Assembly (NCBI GenBank): GCA_009843525.1
Contig: VYDH01000028.1
Location: 1 to 64,000 of the forward strand
Length of the DNA stretch: 64,000 nucleotides
Direction: 5' to 3'
From: Acidimicrobiales bacterium
Lineage (GTDB): Bacteria > Actinomycetota > Acidimicrobiia > Acidimicrobiales > Poriferisodalaceae
Every line of letters starts with the position of its first letter. The first letter of the stretch is position 1. Positions 37,920-45,034 of the stretch are shown piece after piece. The position numbers and the translations under genes are program-made. The notes under the pieces were generated by a model. The model was not told the origin of the DNA and ran no database searches. It was given only the letters and a program-made list of their open reading frames with translations.

Positions 37920-37990
37920 GGCGGAGTGGCCGAGTGGTTAGGCAGCGGCCTGCAAAGCCGTGTACGCCGGTTCGAATCCGGTCTCCGCCT
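37920..37990 (+). tRNA. tRNA-Cys (anticodon GCA)
   Basis: Acceptor GGCGGAG/CTCCGCC, anticodon arm GCGGC-CTGCAAA-GCCGT with anticodon GCA, T-arm GCCGG-TTCGAAT-CCGGT and discriminator T form a full 71-base cloverleaf; CCA is not encoded. TACCCT at 37903-37908 is a likely -10 element. Confidence 0.95.
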
Positions 37991-38069
37991 CGCCGGCCAG
38001 CCGGACCTCGGGCAGGCTGAAGGCGTCGGCCGAGCCATGTAGGCAGGGTGCTAGCGTGAGTCGCCCTCC

Positions 38070-38146
38070 GGGCGATTGGCGCAGTTGGTTAGCGCGCTTG
38101 CATGACACGCAAGAGGTCACAGGTTCGACTCCTGTATCGCCCACCA
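38070..38146 (+). tRNA. tRNA-Val (anticodon GAC)
   Basis: Acceptor GGGCGAT/ATCGCCC, anticodon arm CTTGC-ATGACAC-GCAAG with anticodon GAC, T-arm ACAGG-TTCGACT-CCTGT and an encoded ACCA end form a complete cloverleaf. TAGCGT at 38052-38057 is a likely -10 element. Confidence 0.95.
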
Positions 38147-38305: not shown

Positions 38306-41300
38306 GTGCGAGCACATGTGAGGTGCGGGCGCGGTGGGTCGCGGTGCTTGAGGGCGGCGGTTGCGGTATTGGTGGGGGCGGCGGCGGTGTTGGGGCCGTT
38401 GGCGTCGGCCATGGGTGCCTCGCCGGAGCTGCAGCTGCGCGACGTTCCTGAGGCGATAGAGCTGGGCGACCTCGCGGACGAGGCCAAGACGGTGGTCAAC
38501 AGCTCCATTGACGACGCGGCCGGGGGCGTAGTGCGGTACGGGTTCGAGCTGTCGTCGCCGCAGTCGGTGGAGGTGGTGCTGCGGCTGCTGAGCGCGAACC
38601 TCGATGTGTTCTTGGAGGACGCGCAAGGCGAGGTGCTGGGCTCGGGCACCGAGCTGGGGCACTCTGATGAGCGGTTCACGCTGACATTGGCGGCGGGCAG
38701 CTATGTGGTGCGGCTGGAGTCCGCGGAGCCGGTGCGGTACCGGCTCAAGCTCAAGGTCACCGAGCCGGTGGGGGAGCCCGTCGGCACCCGCACGGACCCG
38801 GGCACCAAGACCGACCCGGGCACTGAGTCAGATCCGGGCGCCCCCGCAGACCTCGTCGAGGCGTGGACATCAGTGTTGGACGTGGGGGCGAGTGACGACG
38901 GGGCGGGCTACTCGCGCTGGGCACAGTTTGGTTCGCTGACGCCGGTTCAATTCGATGTCGACGGGTCGTCGTATGACGTCATCTTGCTCGCCGAGCTCGC
39001 CGGCGGCCTGTACCTGGGCCTACGGCGTTCGCTGGACACCGAGTTCACCCTCGAGATCGACGGCCAGCAGTTCGTCGGCTCCGACAGCTTGGTTCCCGCT
39101 GGGCTGGCGCTGCGCGGCACGTACTGGTGGCCCACAAACGGCGTGCTGTCCGCCTCCCTGGGCAGCACCGCCGACGTGTCGCTCAGCGTCGGCGCCGACA
39201 CGCTTCCTGAGCGTGGCGCGGCACCACCGGGAGCGTGGTTCTCGGATGTGCCCGACACGCACGACGGATCGACCTCGTTCACGCTGGAGCTCAACTTCGA
39301 CGAAGCAGGCGTCGAGGTCACCGCAGGATCGATGGCCGACGCGCTGACCGTGACCGGCGGCTCGCTGGGGGTCGTGACCGAAGTGTCGCCCGCCGGCAAG
39401 ACCTGGGAACTCACCGTGACCCCCGACGCAGCGGGCGACGTCACCGTGTCGCTCAACGCCCCAACAGACTGCGTCACAGCACACGCGGTGTGCACCGCCG
39501 ACGGGCGAATGCTGCGCAACACCGCCCAAGCCGTCGTGCGGGGAACTGCCGATGACGACGATCCGCCCGCCAGCAGTGCCGACTTGAGTGCGCTCACGGT
39601 GGACGGCGTCAGTGTTGCCGGATTCAGCGCCGGCGTCACGGAGTACCAATTCGGTGTGGATGCCTCGGTGGCGCAGGTGACGGTGTCGGGCGTCGCGGAT
39701 GGGGACGCGGCGGTGGCCTACAGCGGAACCGACGCCGACAGACTCACCGACGGCCACCAACTGGGCCTGAGCGAGGGCCGCAACGTCGCGACGGTCACCG
39801 TCACTGCCGCCGACGGCAACACGACCAAGGAATACACCGTCAGCATCAACCGGGGGTCGGAGGCCCCCTTTGGATGGAGCGCCGGGGACGACTTCGACAC
39901 CTTGGCCGCGGCGGGGAACAAGTCAGCCGATGGCCTGTGGTCCGACGGCACCACCATGTGGGTGTCCGACGACTCCTACGGCAATGAGAAGATCTTCGCC
40001 TACACGCTGGCCACCAAACAGCGAGATCCCAGCAAGGACATCCGGGTCCGGCAGACCGGGGCGTTCGGAGACGCCCATGTCCGAGACATATGGTCCGACG
40101 GCACCACCATGTGGGTGGCCAACCACTTCGAGGCCAAGCTCTTCGCCTACACGCTGGCCGGTGGGCAGCGGGACCCCGCCAGGGACTTGAACACCGACGG
40201 CGCGGCCGGGAATGAATCCCCTATGGGTTTGTGGTCCGACGGCACGACCATGTGGGTGTCCGACCTTTCCAGCAAGAAGATCTTCGCCTACACGCTGGCC
40301 ACCAAGCAGCGGGACCCCGGCAAGGACATCGACACCGACGGCACGGCCAACACGGGACCCGTCGGCCTGTGGTCCGACGGCACGACCATGTGGGTAGCCG
40401 ACAGTTTCGACGCCAAGCTCTACGCCTTCACGCTGGCCACCGGGCAGCGCGACCCCGACCGGGACTTCGACACCCTGTCGGGGCACGGCCACACCCTTCC
40501 TTGGGCGATCTGGTCCGACGGCGCGACGATGTGGGTGTCGGGCTTCCTCAACGACAAGATCTTCGCCTACAACATGCCCGGCAACGCCGACCCGGGCAAT
40601 GCCGACCTGAGTGCGCTCACGGTGGACGGCGTCAGTGTTGCCGGATTCAGCGCCAGCGACACCGCGTACCAGTTCGGTGTGGGCGCCTCGGTGGCGCGGG
40701 TGACGGTGTTGGGCGTCGCGGACGGGGACGCGGCGGTGGTCTACAGCGGAACCGACGCCGACAGCGTCACCGACGGCCACCAAGTGGACCTGAGCGAGGG
40801 CCGCAACAACGTGAGGATGACCGTCACCGCCGCCGACGGCAGAACGAGAAAGGGCTACACCGTCAGCATCAACCGGGGGTCGGAGGCCCCCTACGGATGG
40901 AGCGCCGAGGACGACTTCGACACCTTGGCCGCGGCGGACAACAGGTCAGTCACCGGCCTGTGGTCCGACGGCACCACCATGTGGGTGGCCGACGACGCCG
41001 ACGGCAGTGAGAGGGCCTACGCCTACACGCTGGCCACCAAGCAGCGGGATCCCGGCAAGGACATCGACCTCCGCAAGCCCTCCAGAGACACCCATGTCCG
41101 GTCCATCTGGTCAGACGGCACCACCATGTGGATGGGCGAGAGTTTCGACAACAAGCTCTACGCCTTCACGCTGGCCGACGGGCAGCGGGACCCCGGCAAG
41201 GACATCGACATCGGCAACCAGTACCCCTATGGCCTGTGGTCCGACGGCACGACCATGTGGGTGTCCGACGTTCACAAACAGAAGATCTTCGCCTACACGC

Positions 41301-44300
41301 TGGCCGACGGGCAGCGGGACCCCGGCAAGGACTTCGACACCCTCGACCCGGCCAACGCCCGTCCCGCCGGCCTGTGGTCCGACGGCACGACCATGTGGGT
41401 GGCCAACAGCTGGTATGACGAGAAGATCTTCGCCTACACGCTGGCCACCAAGCAGCGGGACCCCGACCGGGACTTCGACACCCTGTCCGGGCACCGCCAG
41501 GGCCCTCCCCGGGCGATCTGGTCCGACGGCACGACCATGTGGGTGGCGAGCGACTACATCGACAAGCTGTTCGCCTACAACATGCCGGGCAACGCCGACC
41601 TGAGCGCTCTGAGCCTCAGCGCCGGGACGTTGACCCCCGCCTTCGGCACCGCCACGACGTCCTACACGGTTTCGGTGGGCGACTCGGTGTCGCAGGTGAC
41701 GGTGACCGCCCAAGCAGCCGACGCGGGCAACGCCACGGTCGTGTTCCTCGACGGCAACGACGTGGAACTCCCCGACGCCGACGACCACGCCGACGGCCAG
41801 CAGGTGGACCTCGCGTTGGGCGACAACACGATCAAGGTCAAAGTCACCGCCTCGGACCTCGTCACCACCCGCGTCTACACGCTGACGGTCCACCGTGGCG
41901 CCGTCGACGACGCCGCGAACTGGGCGGTGTCGGTCGGCTCGGCGTCCATCGCCGAGGAGGGCGAGACGTCGACGGTGGTGACGGTGAGCACCGGAGGCGT
42001 GACGCTCACCGAGGCGAAGACGATCACGCTGGTCCTGGCGGGCACCGCGACCGAGGTCGCCGACTACACAGTCACCGCCAAGACGCTGACGCTCGCCGCC
42101 GGCGAGGTCTCGGCACACGCCACGGTGACCGCGGTGGACGACACCGACATAGACAGCGACGAGACCATCGAGATCACCGCGATGCTCGACGGCGCGGTGA
42201 TCGGCGTCTCCCAGACCATCACCATCGCCGACAACGACGAGGGCACCAGCGGCTTGTGCTCGCCGGTCTTCGACCCGACGCCCACGGCGGTGGAAGTGAT
42301 GGCGGTCCCCATCGTGGTGGCATCCAACATCGGCGAGTACTTCGTGCTGTATGTCAACCACGAAGAGGACGGTGTGGTGGTGGAGACACCGGTCGCGGTG
42401 ATCAGGGGCGAGCCGTCCACGACGACGCTGGCCGAGAACGTGGCCGCGCTGCCGCCGGAGCGCTACCGGGTGGAGAAGTACCTCATCACCGACCCCGCCG
42501 ACGTCGACGGCGACTGCGTCGACGACCTCACCGAACTCGACAGCCTCGGGACCATGAGCCCGGTGAACCCCGCCCCGGCCATCGGGCTCACCGACGGCGC
42601 CGCAGCCGTTCCCGATCAGCCCACCTTCGAGACGCTGGCCTACAACGAGCAGTATCTCAAGTTCGTTCTGCTGGGCATGGACACCGGCTCGCCGACCCTG
42701 TTCTTCATCAACTCCAAGACGCACCTCCGCCATCCCATCGCGCTGTTCCTCAATGCGATCGGTCACCTGGAGGCCGACCTGCCCTGGGCCGTGCCGGGCG
42801 AGATCGTCTACGACCCCGCACTCGAGGCCCCCGACGGCAGCACCGGCGTCTACTACTGGTGGCTGAACCGCTACGACAACCGCTACAGCACCGACCTGCT
42901 CGAGCGCATCCACACCCTGCTCGCGGCCGGTATGCCGCTCCTCGACGACAACCTGGCCCTGCACATACCGAACTACCGCCTCGCGAGCTACCAGTCCGAA
43001 CTGCCGCTGTTGAGGCAGTCGCGCATCCCGCTCATGTTCGACGAGGACATCCACCCCGGATCCAGCTTCCTGTCTATGAATCCCGCAGTGGGATACGGCC
43101 AGCTGCGGGTCATTGAACAGGGGGAGCGGCCCAATCCCCGCGACATCGCGATATACGAGGCACTGCCCAACGAGCTGCCCCGCGTCGCAGGGATCATCAC
43201 CACCGTGCCCCAGACGCCGCTGTCGCACGTGAATCTGAGAGCCGTGCAGGACGCCGTCCCCAATGCTTTCATCAGCGACGCCCTCGATGACAGCACCGTC
43301 GACGGTGACATCATCGACGGCCTCCTCGACAGCTACGTCCGCTACGAGGTGACCGAGAGCGGATGGAGTGTGAGGGCAGCCACCCCCGCCGAGGTCGACG
43401 CCCACTACGCCGCGTTGCGGCCCGCTACGGCACAAACACCCCAACGCGATCTGTCGGTCACCGCGATCACCCCTCTCAGCGCCGTTGGCTTCGAGGACTG
43501 GGACGCCTTCGGGGTCAAGGCCGCCAATGTGGCCGTGCTGGGGACGCTGGGCTTTCCGCCCGGGACCGTGCCCGAAGGATTCGCGGTGCCGTTCTACTTC
43601 TACGACGAGTTCATGAAGCACAACGGGTTCTATGACGACATCGAAGAGATGCTCGCCGACGAGAGCTTCCAGACCGACTTCGACGTCCAAGAGGACATGC
43701 TCAAGGACCTGCGCAAGGCCATCAAGAAGGGCCAGACGCCCGCCTGGATCACCGACGCGCTCACCGCGATGCACGCCACCTACCCCGTGGGGCGGTCGCT
43801 TCGCTACCGGTCGAGCACCAACAACGAAGACCTTCCCGGGTTCAGCGGGGCGGGGCTGTACGACTCCAAGACCCAGGATCCCGACGAGACCGAAGAAGAC
43901 GGCATAGACAAGTCCCTCAAAGGGGTCTATGCCAGCCTGTGGAACTTCCGAGCCTTCGCTGAACGCGAATTCCACCGCATCGACCACCTCGCAACGGCGA
44001 TGGGGGTGCTGGTGCACCCCAACTACACCGACGAGCTCGCCAACGGCGTCGCGGTCAGCTTCGACCCCGTCAGCGGCTTCGACGGCTACTACTACGTCAA
44101 CACCCAGCTCGGCGAGGACCTCGTCACGAACCCCGACGCCTACTCCGAGCCCGAGGAGATCCTGCTGCACCCCAGCGGCAACCAGATCGAGATCCTGGCG
44201 ACCTCCAACCAGGTGGAGCCCGGAGAACTCCTCCTAACCGACGCCCAACTCCGCCAGCTCGGCGGACACCTCGAAGTGATCCACGACCACTTCAAAGCGC

Positions 44301-45034
44301 TGTACGACCCCGCACCCGACGAGCCCTTCGCCATGGAGATCGAATTCAAGATCACCAGCAGCGACATCCTCGCCATCAAGCAAGCCCGTCCCTGGGTCTT
44401 CAGCCCGTCCAATCAGACCGCCACCGGCCAGCCCACCATCACGGGCACGCCGCAGGAGGGTGAGACGCTCAGTGCGGACACCTCTGGGATCGGTGACGCC
44501 AATGGGCTCACCAACGTGCAGTTCAGCTACCAGTGGATACGCAGTGACGGCAGCACAGACACGGACATCGTCGGCGCCTCCGGCCAGACGCACACCCTGA
44601 CCCACGACGACGTGGGGAAGGCCATCAAGGTGCAGGTCAGCTTCACCGATGACGACGGGTTCTCCGAGACACTGACCAGCGCCGCGACGGCTGCGGTGGC
44701 CAATCCGGTCGAGACGCTGTGGTCGGCGGAGATGACGGTGGCGGACTATGGCAGCAGCAGCCTGGGCGCCTACAACGACGACACCCTGTTCTCGAACGTA
44801 ACGAGCAGCATCGGGCTCCAAGTCAAGTGGCTCTGGTACCTGGAGTCGGAGCGGAAGCTCTATCTGGCATTTCGGGCACCGGCTTCCGGCACAGGAGACT
44901 GGACACTGCATATCGACGATATGGCGCTTGACTTCCCGAGCGGGAATTCGAACTTCGTCTTCAGAAACGTCGACCTGTCCTGGACGGCCGGCCAAGTTGT
45001 CAACGTGAGCATCGTTCGACCAGAGCCGTCCTAA
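38306..45034 (+). CDS. Secreted multidomain protein with glucan-dikinase-like phosphohistidine and ATP-grasp domains
   Basis: This 2242-residue protein has a signal peptide (basic start, then AAVAVLVGAAAVLGPLASA). Next come a PPC-like beta domain (about 50-135), a beta module at about 170-300, an Ig-like stretch, two units of Cadherin-like sandwich plus five propeller-type repeats (424-764 and 765-1095), a third Cadherin-like domain (about 1096-1200), a Calx-beta-like domain (1203-1315) and an acidic DVDGDCVDDLTEL calcium-type loop (about 1400). From about 1440 the sequence changes: TLFFINSKTHLRHP, then TPLSHVNLRA with His1641, resembling the LSHVSVRA phosphohistidine site of glucan water dikinases. 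An ATP-grasp domain follows (about 1728-2033) with FGVKAANVAVLG, RSSTNNEDLPGFSGAGLYDS, YASLWNFRAFAE and ILAIKQARPWV, so the Lys, Arg, Glu, Gln and Arg nucleotide contacts of PPDK_N are present. An Ig-like domain and a repeat of the beta module end it. Function is unknown; an extracellular phosphotransfer or nucleotide-binding adhesin is inference. Confidence 0.85.
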   Translation: MRAHVRCGRGGSRCLRAAVAVLVGAAAVLGPLASAMGASPELQLRDVPEAIELGDLADEAKTVVNSSIDDAAGGVVRYGFELSSPQSVEVVLRLLSANLDVFLEDAQGEVLGSGTELGHSDERFTLTLAAGSYVVRLESAEPVRYRLKLKVTEPVGEPVGTRTDPGTKTDPGTESDPGAPADLVEAWTSVLDVGASDDGAGYSRWAQFGSLTPVQFDVDGSSYDVILLAELAGGLYLGLRRSLDTEFTLEIDGQQFVGSDSLVPAGLALRGTYWWPTNGVLSASLGSTADVSLSVGADTLPERGAAPPGAWFSDVPDTHDGSTSFTLELNFDEAGVEVTAGSMADALTVTGGSLGVVTEVSPAGKTWELTVTPDAAGDVTVSLNAPTDCVTAHAVCTADGRMLRNTAQAVVRGTADDDDPPASSADLSALTVDGVSVAGFSAGVTEYQFGVDASVAQVTVSGVADGDAAVAYSGTDADRLTDGHQLGLSEGRNVATVTVTAADGNTTKEYTVSINRGSEAPFGWSAGDDFDTLAAAGNKSADGLWSDGTTMWVSDDSYGNEKIFAYTLATKQRDPSKDIRVRQTGAFGDAHVRDIWSDGTTMWVANHFEAKLFAYTLAGGQRDPARDLNTDGAAGNESPMGLWSDGTTMWVSDLSSKKIFAYTLATKQRDPGKDIDTDGTANTGPVGLWSDGTTMWVADSFDAKLYAFTLATGQRDPDRDFDTLSGHGHTLPWAIWSDGATMWVSGFLNDKIFAYNMPGNADPGNADLSALTVDGVSVAGFSASDTAYQFGVGASVARVTVLGVADGDAAVVYSGTDADSVTDGHQVDLSEGRNNVRMTVTAADGRTRKGYTVSINRGSEAPYGWSAEDDFDTLAAADNRSVTGLWSDGTTMWVADDADGSERAYAYTLATKQRDPGKDIDLRKPSRDTHVRSIWSDGTTMWMGESFDNKLYAFTLADGQRDPGKDIDIGNQYPYGLWSDGTTMWVSDVHKQKIFAYTLADGQRDPGKDFDTLDPANARPAGLWSDGTTMWVANSWYDEKIFAYTLATKQRDPDRDFDTLSGHRQGPPRAIWSDGTTMWVASDYIDKLFAYNMPGNADLSALSLSAGTLTPAFGTATTSYTVSVGDSVSQVTVTAQAADAGNATVVFLDGNDVELPDADDHADGQQVDLALGDNTIKVKVTASDLVTTRVYTLTVHRGAVDDAANWAVSVGSASIAEEGETSTVVTVSTGGVTLTEAKTITLVLAGTATEVADYTVTAKTLTLAAGEVSAHATVTAVDDTDIDSDETIEITAMLDGAVIGVSQTITIADNDEGTSGLCSPVFDPTPTAVEVMAVPIVVASNIGEYFVLYVNHEEDGVVVETPVAVIRGEPSTTTLAENVAALPPERYRVEKYLITDPADVDGDCVDDLTELDSLGTMSPVNPAPAIGLTDGAAAVPDQPTFETLAYNEQYLKFVLLGMDTGSPTLFFINSKTHLRHPIALFLNAIGHLEADLPWAVPGEIVYDPALEAPDGSTGVYYWWLNRYDNRYSTDLLERIHTLLAAGMPLLDDNLALHIPNYRLASYQSELPLLRQSRIPLMFDEDIHPGSSFLSMNPAVGYGQLRVIEQGERPNPRDIAIYEALPNELPRVAGIITTVPQTPLSHVNLRAVQDAVPNAFISDALDDSTVDGDIIDGLLDSYVRYEVTESGWSVRAATPAEVDAHYAALRPATAQTPQRDLSVTAITPLSAVGFEDWDAFGVKAANVAVLGTLGFPPGTVPEGFAVPFYFYDEFMKHNGFYDDIEEMLADESFQTDFDVQEDMLKDLRKAIKKGQTPAWITDALTAMHATYPVGRSLRYRSSTNNEDLPGFSGAGLYDSKTQDPDETEEDGIDKSLKGVYASLWNFRAFAEREFHRIDHLATAMGVLVHPNYTDELANGVAVSFDPVSGFDGYYYVNTQLGEDLVTNPDAYSEPEEILLHPSGNQIEILATSNQVEPGELLLTDAQLRQLGGHLEVIHDHFKALYDPAPDEPFAMEIEFKITSSDILAIKQARPWVFSPSNQTATGQPTITGTPQEGETLSADTSGIGDANGLTNVQFSYQWIRSDGSTDTDIVGASGQTHTLTHDDVGKAIKVQVSFTDDDGFSETLTSAATAAVANPVETLWSAEMTVADYGSSSLGAYNDDTLFSNVTSSIGLQVKWLWYLESERKLYLAFRAPASGTGDWTLHIDDMALDFPSGNSNFVFRNVDLSWTAGQVVNVSIVRPEPS
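39932..40576 (+). repeat. First array of five WSDGTTMWV repeats
   Basis: Repeats begin at 39932, 40085, 40226, 40364 and 40505. Each encodes a Trp-Ser-Asp-Gly-(Thr/Ala)-Thr-Met-Trp-Val core and a K-I/L-F/Y-AYTLA-x2-QRDP tail, spaced 138-153 bases. The pattern suggests blades of a beta-propeller. Confidence 0.9.
40955..41590 (+). repeat. Second array of five WSDGTTMWV repeats
   Basis: Repeats begin at 40955, 41102, 41231, 41369 and 41513 with the same core as the first array. The last repeat of each array ends in AYNMPGNAD and leads into a Cadherin-like domain. Confidence 0.9.

Follow-up and report, generated by a model that had tools for sequence, protein, structure and literature searches.

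A conserved family of dikinase-like proteins, probably exported, with apparently intact active-site residues and a member in an Acidimicrobiales genome

Phosphorylation is usually viewed as an intracellular process because ATP is inside the cell. The window analyzed here, meaning the whole stretch of 64,000 nucleotides from an Acidimicrobiales bacterium, encodes a giant adhesin-like protein with a dikinase-type core near its C-terminus, raising the question of whether a phosphotransferase of the PPDK/PEP-synthase/glucan water dikinase (GWD) superfamily could act at the cell surface. The gene is a single open frame with no internal stop (Table 1). By eye, the N-terminus VRAHVRCGRGGSRCLRAAVAVLVGAAAVLGPLASAMGAS resembles a Sec signal peptide, in agreement with the secretion signal named in the original prediction. 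The adhesion-type domains and propeller repeats described there were also recovered, as three cadherin-like stretches (PF12733) that start close to residues 424, 765, and 1096 and as ten propeller-type WSDG(T/A)TMW repeats, five in each of two blocks (545 to 736 and 886 to 1072). Two DUF6242 stretches above the Pfam cut-off span the repeat region, and Calx-beta, PPC, and IG_AIR9 matched below cut-off only. No profile matched the acidic DGDCVDD loop of the window protein. All motifs quoted in the original prediction, including His1641, were found at the residues given for them. In the core, LSHV starts at residue 1639, FGVKAAN at 1735, RSSTNNED at 1835, and YASLWNF at 1875, followed toward the C-terminal end by MEIEFKI (2010) and IKQARPWV (2024).

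Table 1. Features of the dikinase-like gene, in window coordinates
Feature	Position	Strand	Remark and basis
Whole gene	38306..45034	+	2242 aa, GTG start; open reading frame
Signal-peptide-like N-terminus, residues ~1-39	38306..38422	+	Direct reading
Three PF12733 cadherin-like stretches and two WSDG(T/A)TMW blocks	39575..41896	+	Pfam profiles, motif reading
Conserved core, residues 1319-2037	42260..44416	+	Alignment with 81 relatives; AF2 mean pLDDT 91.2
DGDCVDD acidic loop, 1401-1407, possible calcium-binding loop	42506..42526	+	Direct reading
Family-specific core part, 1436 to ~1619, His1476 invariant	42611..43162	+	Alignment; candidate acceptor-binding region
Phosphohistidine-type segment, ~1620-1722, QTPLSHVNLRA, His1641 (codon 43226-43228)	43163..43471	+	Motif; relatives weakly match PF22973 there
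PPDK_N ATP-grasp domain, 1735-2034; K1738, R1835, E2013, Q2026, R2028	43508..44407	+	PF01326 match, alignment, fold match
Ig-like segment, 2044-2110	44435..44635	+	IG_AIR9, below cut-off

The gene neighbors in the window are ordinary, with a DEAD-box helicase upstream and a CoA-transferase III downstream. Genes for tRNA-Cys and tRNA-Val lie directly upstream of the dikinase-like gene (37920-38146); tRNA genes are frequent insertion sites. An antisense open frame of 1019 aa (41111-44170, minus strand) overlaps the core and is probably a shadow of the high-GC coding sequence. A chance open frame or pseudogene was ruled out for the gene itself by core invariance (82 of 82 sequences) and dN/dS, both detailed below.

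The ATP-grasp assignment was the firmest. PF01326 (PPDK_N) scored 91.8 bits (cut-off 27) and, together with the conserved nucleotide-pocket residues, places the window protein in the PPDK_N superfamily, as anticipated. The core model, built from an alignment of 65 sequences (pTM 0.85), has the predicted fold of a PPDK-type ATP-grasp; 13 of its 14 PDB matches in Foldseek at E ≤ 0.001 were rifampin phosphotransferase, PEP synthase, PPDK, or HpeI, the first two giving the best matches, and the remaining one was a D-Ala ligase. Profile searches aligned K1738 with the conserved Lys and R1835 with the RSS-motif Arg of PEP synthases and rifampin phosphotransferase, and the end of the core (EIEFKI...IKQARP) with the IEW...ILQARP end of 2ols. 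The window core thus has the ATP-grasp fold and the conserved pocket in common with rifampin phosphotransferase and PEP synthase. In the excerpted account of rifampin phosphotransferase, K22A abolished activity and R117A left no phospho-rifampin formed (PMC4844700); equated by motif, K22 and R117 would be the counterparts of K1738 and R1835. The same excerpts report E297A without loss of resistance (PMC4844700), hence pocket conservation, judged here by alignment and not from the pocket geometry of the model, is by itself no proof of a given activity.

Resemblance to known enzymes raised the alternative that the protein is one of them, PEP synthase, PPDK, or rifampin phosphotransferase, located in the cytoplasm and bearing unusual flanking regions. 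NCBIfam returned nothing for the core except PEP-synthase-type fragments, and the best named profiles were PEP synthase models. However, the top PEP synthase model scored 73.4 bits against a cut-off of 598, and RIF_Ptrans_rph scored 48.1 against 999. Neither PF00391, which had been put forward as a second profile for the C-terminal part, nor any other model of PEP-utilizing enzymes matched the window protein at E ≤ 1, and both the PEP/pyruvate barrel and the PF00391 His domain expected after the ATP-grasp domain in PEP synthase and PPDK were absent at that threshold. The His motif of the window protein lies ahead of the ATP-grasp domain. The excerpts of PMC4844700 describe the reverse order for rifampin phosphotransferase and PEP synthase, with ATP-grasp leading and the His located at the C-terminus in the former and centrally in the latter. 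No acceptor domain in common with these enzymes was found in the window core, and relatives carry T9SS domains. On the Pfam and NCBIfam results a cytoplasmic PEP synthase identity was rejected, and we give this group of enzymes as a whole next to no chance. The window's own genome (93.8% complete) encodes a second core-bearing protein (L002; contig C34, 49-3753), 1234 aa long and signal-like at its start; no third PPDK_N protein was found there. Since both PPDK_N proteins found bear the core, the genome showed no sign of an ordinary PEP synthase or PPDK.

In plant GWD, the LSH phosphohistidine motif precedes a C-terminal ATP-grasp domain, and the window family has the same order, its LSH phosphohistidine-type motif coming ahead of a C-terminal PPDK_N domain. 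Neither PF00391 nor PF22973 (GWD1_pHisD) gave a match to the window protein itself (E ≤ 1), so it is the motif, the relatives, and the domain order that support calling this segment phosphohistidine-type. PF22973 matched 18 of 65 relatives weakly at E ≤ 0.5 (best E 0.004); PF00391 was absent among the 22 families that the 65 members matched at this threshold. When ten relatives were examined singly, seven matched PF22973 over profile positions 47-113 at most, each time across the LSHV histidine, with scores of 11.9 to 17.2 bits, all under the cut-off of 27. Across 149 genomes of the phylum, PF22973 gave no match, but the controls were likewise without one, so this absence carries no information. 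The likeness to GWD that the original prediction had drawn held for the order of motif and domain and, by profile, faintly for the relatives but not for the window protein itself. Excerpts of a 2026 review give His992 as the phosphohistidine-site residue of potato GWD and state that GWD is without a high-resolution structure (PMC12892837).

These observations bear on whether the protein could be an exported water dikinase for glucan or a related polysaccharide, which would apply plant-GWD chemistry to an extracellular glucan or wall polymer. The His motif ahead of ATP-grasp and the PF22973 matches over the LSHV histidine speak for it, but those matches are all below cut-off, Pfam found no carbohydrate-binding module in the window protein at E ≤ 1 (GWD has starch-binding modules), and the nine window neighbors scanned showed nothing glucan-related. 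The window protein also differs from GWD in being bacterial, probably exported, and built on another upstream part. We consider a glucan dikinase unlikely, and neither the carbohydrate-binding modules nor the glucan acceptor proposed originally found a counterpart in the data. Modeled separately, residues 1436-1722, which include the candidate acceptor region, reached a pLDDT of 89.1 and a pTM of 0.60 and had no PDB match in Foldseek at E ≤ 0.001.

To assess conservation, one genome per GTDB species was scanned; 280 of 313 pattern matches encoded relatives, and the best 80 of these 280 (44 to 93% identity over about 600 to 680 residues) were kept. Their records carry titles of ten bacterial phyla and include Acidimicrobiia, Chloroflexi/Dehalococcoidia, Latescibacteria, Binatia, Poribacteria, Bacteroidetes, Verrucomicrobia, Planctomycetes, Bryobacterales, and Proteobacteria. 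In the 82 aligned cores (the window protein, L002, and the 80 scan loci), H1476, H1641, K1738, R1835, E1841, D1842, E2013, Q2026, and R2028 were all invariant, so the conservation of nucleotide-contact positions claimed earlier was confirmed by alignment. Together with the significant profile match and the PPDK-type fold of the model, this means that none of the three outcomes named in the original prediction as refuting it occurred. The window core had dN/dS values of 0.34, 0.41, and 0.29 relative to L003, L004, and L005, respectively, and is under purifying selection. Excluding 17 near-duplicates from the 82 cores left 65 (alignment A1), 37 of which formed A2. The A2 profile, covering residues 1436-1722, brought in more distant relatives, whose starts often look leader-like by eye, and gave a wider set of 39 rows (38 plus the window, with L135-L137 repeating L081, L028, and L067). 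H1641, K1738, R1835, and E1841 were kept in all 39 and D1842 in 38; in rows aligned that far, E2013 was kept in 28/28, Q2026 in 26/27, and R2028 in 27/27, with 11 rows unaligned at the end. PF00391 matched three of eight distant relatives scanned, weakly and below cut-off, which places those nearer the PEP-synthase type.

The same residues bear on the possibility that the module is catalytically dead and serves an adhesin by binding nucleotide or phosphate. An adhesin-like host protein and the scarcity of ATP outside cells, which is general knowledge, would suit such a role. His1641 and the pocket residues are nevertheless invariant in 82/82 cores and largely kept in distant subfamilies too, and we regard a dead module as very unlikely. 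A domain repurposed for binding only, the fallback in the original prediction, is accordingly disfavored by the invariance of the catalytic set.

Some relatives carry export signals. T9SS sorting domains occurred in all three Bacteroidota members tested (L044, L063, and L045), so that part of the family is extracellular, and L067 had EF-hand matches. Among members whose 5' end is complete, a simple export rule found a signal-like start in 57 of 75, compared with 67 of 175 neighboring ORFs (Fisher P = 3e-8), a weak result taken alone since the neighbor set mixes false ORFs and truly exported ones. Three other settings gave 43 vs 50, 36 vs 43, and 28 vs 35 (members of 75 vs neighbors of 175); the family exceeded its neighbors under all four settings, never cleanly. 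An earlier rule was dropped as too lax, passing 67/75 members but also 108/224 neighbors. From its sequence, the window copy is probably exported.

Taken with the core analysis, the reading we prefer, at a probability of roughly 0.6, is that the window protein is exported and catalytically competent, working as a two-step phosphotransferase of the PPDK/PEP-synthase/GWD superfamily, with modules that would tether it to a surface. What the data show directly is which domains are present and in what order, that the catalytic set does not vary, that selection on the core is purifying, and that some relatives have export signals. The ATP-grasp domain would bind nucleotide and move phosphate to His1641 on the neighboring segment, and the phosphorylated His1641 could then hand it to an acceptor on the family-specific core part (1436-1619), while the cadherin-like, propeller, and Ig-like modules may hold the enzyme at the surface. 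A surface polymer or protein seems the most likely acceptor. The interpretation in the original prediction is partly supported overall; the extracellular phosphotransferase function is one that we infer. No such exported dikinase-like family appeared among the titles and abstract openings listed from the open-licence literature. With its active-site residues intact and some members released by T9SS, such a conserved dikinase-like family would open extracellular phosphorylation and its energy source to direct testing.

In the gene neighborhoods, 3 kb on both sides was available in only 41 of the 80 scan loci. Genes for VTC, a polyphosphate polymerase, and DUF4956 adjoined the dikinase-like gene in five of the 80 (L028, L067, L070, L076, and L081) and in one of eight further close loci (L100, among L100-L105, L131, and L146), where VTC was also confirmed by Pfam. 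Most family loci had no VTC neighbor. In the tree, the six loci comprise L028, L081, and a Bryobacterales group with L100, about three lineages. The 48 genomes searched (G000 plus those of 47 of the 80 scan loci) were picked with the five VTC neighbors already known and all five included, and in this set, chosen knowing the five, VTC within 3 kb was expected 0.033 times and seen five times (P = 3e-10, or 6e-6 counted as three lineages). Overall, VTC was present in 20, DUF4956 in 28, and CotH in 29 of these 48 family-bearing genomes. In Planctomycetota, VTC occurred in 8/10 genomes with an A2 match vs 50/189 without (Fisher P = 0.001), in 7/9 excluding the centre genome (P = 0.003), and in 5/6 for the close family alone (P = 0.009), genome size being uncontrolled throughout. 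The VTC-DUF4956 adjacency to this dikinase-like gene is new here.

Neither VTC nor DUF4956 was found in the window's own genome, nor in 17 of the 18 searched family-bearing genomes titled actinobacterial or chloroflexal, the window's among them; the exception, G159, had both. Four poribacterial genomes had DUF4956 with VTC not found, and the distant loci of Acidobacteriota type (L115-L124) and the L125-L130 group showed neither. Missing from many carriers, the pair cannot be a general requirement. Six distant Bacteroidota relatives (L143, L144, L145, L153, L154, and L155) all lie tail-to-tail with DUF4956, called by a profile iterated on the family loci and checked by Pfam in one, with no VTC found nearby. 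At least four of the six loci are syntenic, which reduces them to roughly a single lineage, and a convergent arrangement is only weak evidence that two genes act together.

Exported CotH kinases offer a parallel. Excerpts of PMC7112168 list CotH, polyphosphate polymerase, and DUF4956 as accessory genes beside Gram-positive pel clusters. Among the 48 genomes, at least seven loci (G159, G175, G181, G183, G190, G193, and G195) have CotH no more than ~3 kb from DUF4956 or VTC; in G195, the dikinase gene sits at a DUF4956-VTC site and CotH at a different DUF4956 site. G166, G186, G188, and G192 had no CotH match, and their sole VTC is beside the dikinase gene. Like CotH, some lineages of the window family have VTC/DUF4956 neighbors, and the protein might be a functional parallel of CotH that phosphorylates surface proteins or serves as an autophosphorylating scaffold. 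Against this, the window protein had no PF08757 match at E ≤ 1, its genome holds a single CotH on another contig and no VTC-DUF4956 pair, and no protein substrate is known. We see a CotH-like role as possible but doubtful.

For the exported phosphotransferase that we favor, the adjoining VTC-DUF4956 pair would, in some relatives, be a candidate supplier of an exported phosphoanhydride. We tentatively propose, at rather long odds, that in part of an exported dikinase family VTC-DUF4956 makes and exports polyphosphate (or another phosphoanhydride) as a power source and that exported CotH kinases draw on the same supply, placing two unrelated kinases on one phosphate-export line. Neighbors held in common with CotH provide a concrete donor hypothesis for some lineages.

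Family occurrence was sparse within the searched genome sets. The A2 profile was met in 5/198 genomes of the class and in 10/199, 9/249, 4/194, 12/149, and 8/247 genomes of the other sets, counts that pool near matches, distant matches, and centre genomes. In the tree, the window groups with L003 (titled Acidimicrobiia) and L004 (titled Dehalococcoidia) within mainly Chloroflexota rows. The L004 core is 82 to 85% identical to the window core, and this grouping reflects either transfer between lineages (phyla) or a binning error. The smallest of the close relatives are 21 poribacterial members of 715 to 740 aa, with little beyond a leader-like segment and the core (start chosen heuristically). 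Distant relatives had open frames of 639 to 753 aa in the phylum of L067 (titled Bryobacterales), 992 to 1083 aa in that of L028 (titled Proteobacteria), 626 to 660 aa in Bacteroidota, and 1053 to 1851 aa plus one cut frame in Planctomycetota, where FG-GAP and dockerin were found in one of two full-length frames tested.

Neighbor clustering of the scan loci showed recurrent genes mostly among Poribacteria, read as shared descent. At one poribacterial locus (L041, 4552-12281), the neighbors encode laminin-G-like, GH36N-like (below cut-off), and DUF5916 proteins. In the record of Neolewinella agarilytica (L039, 7791-10343), an in-frame stop lies between the leader part and the core. The distant relatives L125-L130, of ~1000 aa, have a conserved adjoining gene in all six loci, with a Beta-lactamase2 match in both neighbors tested.
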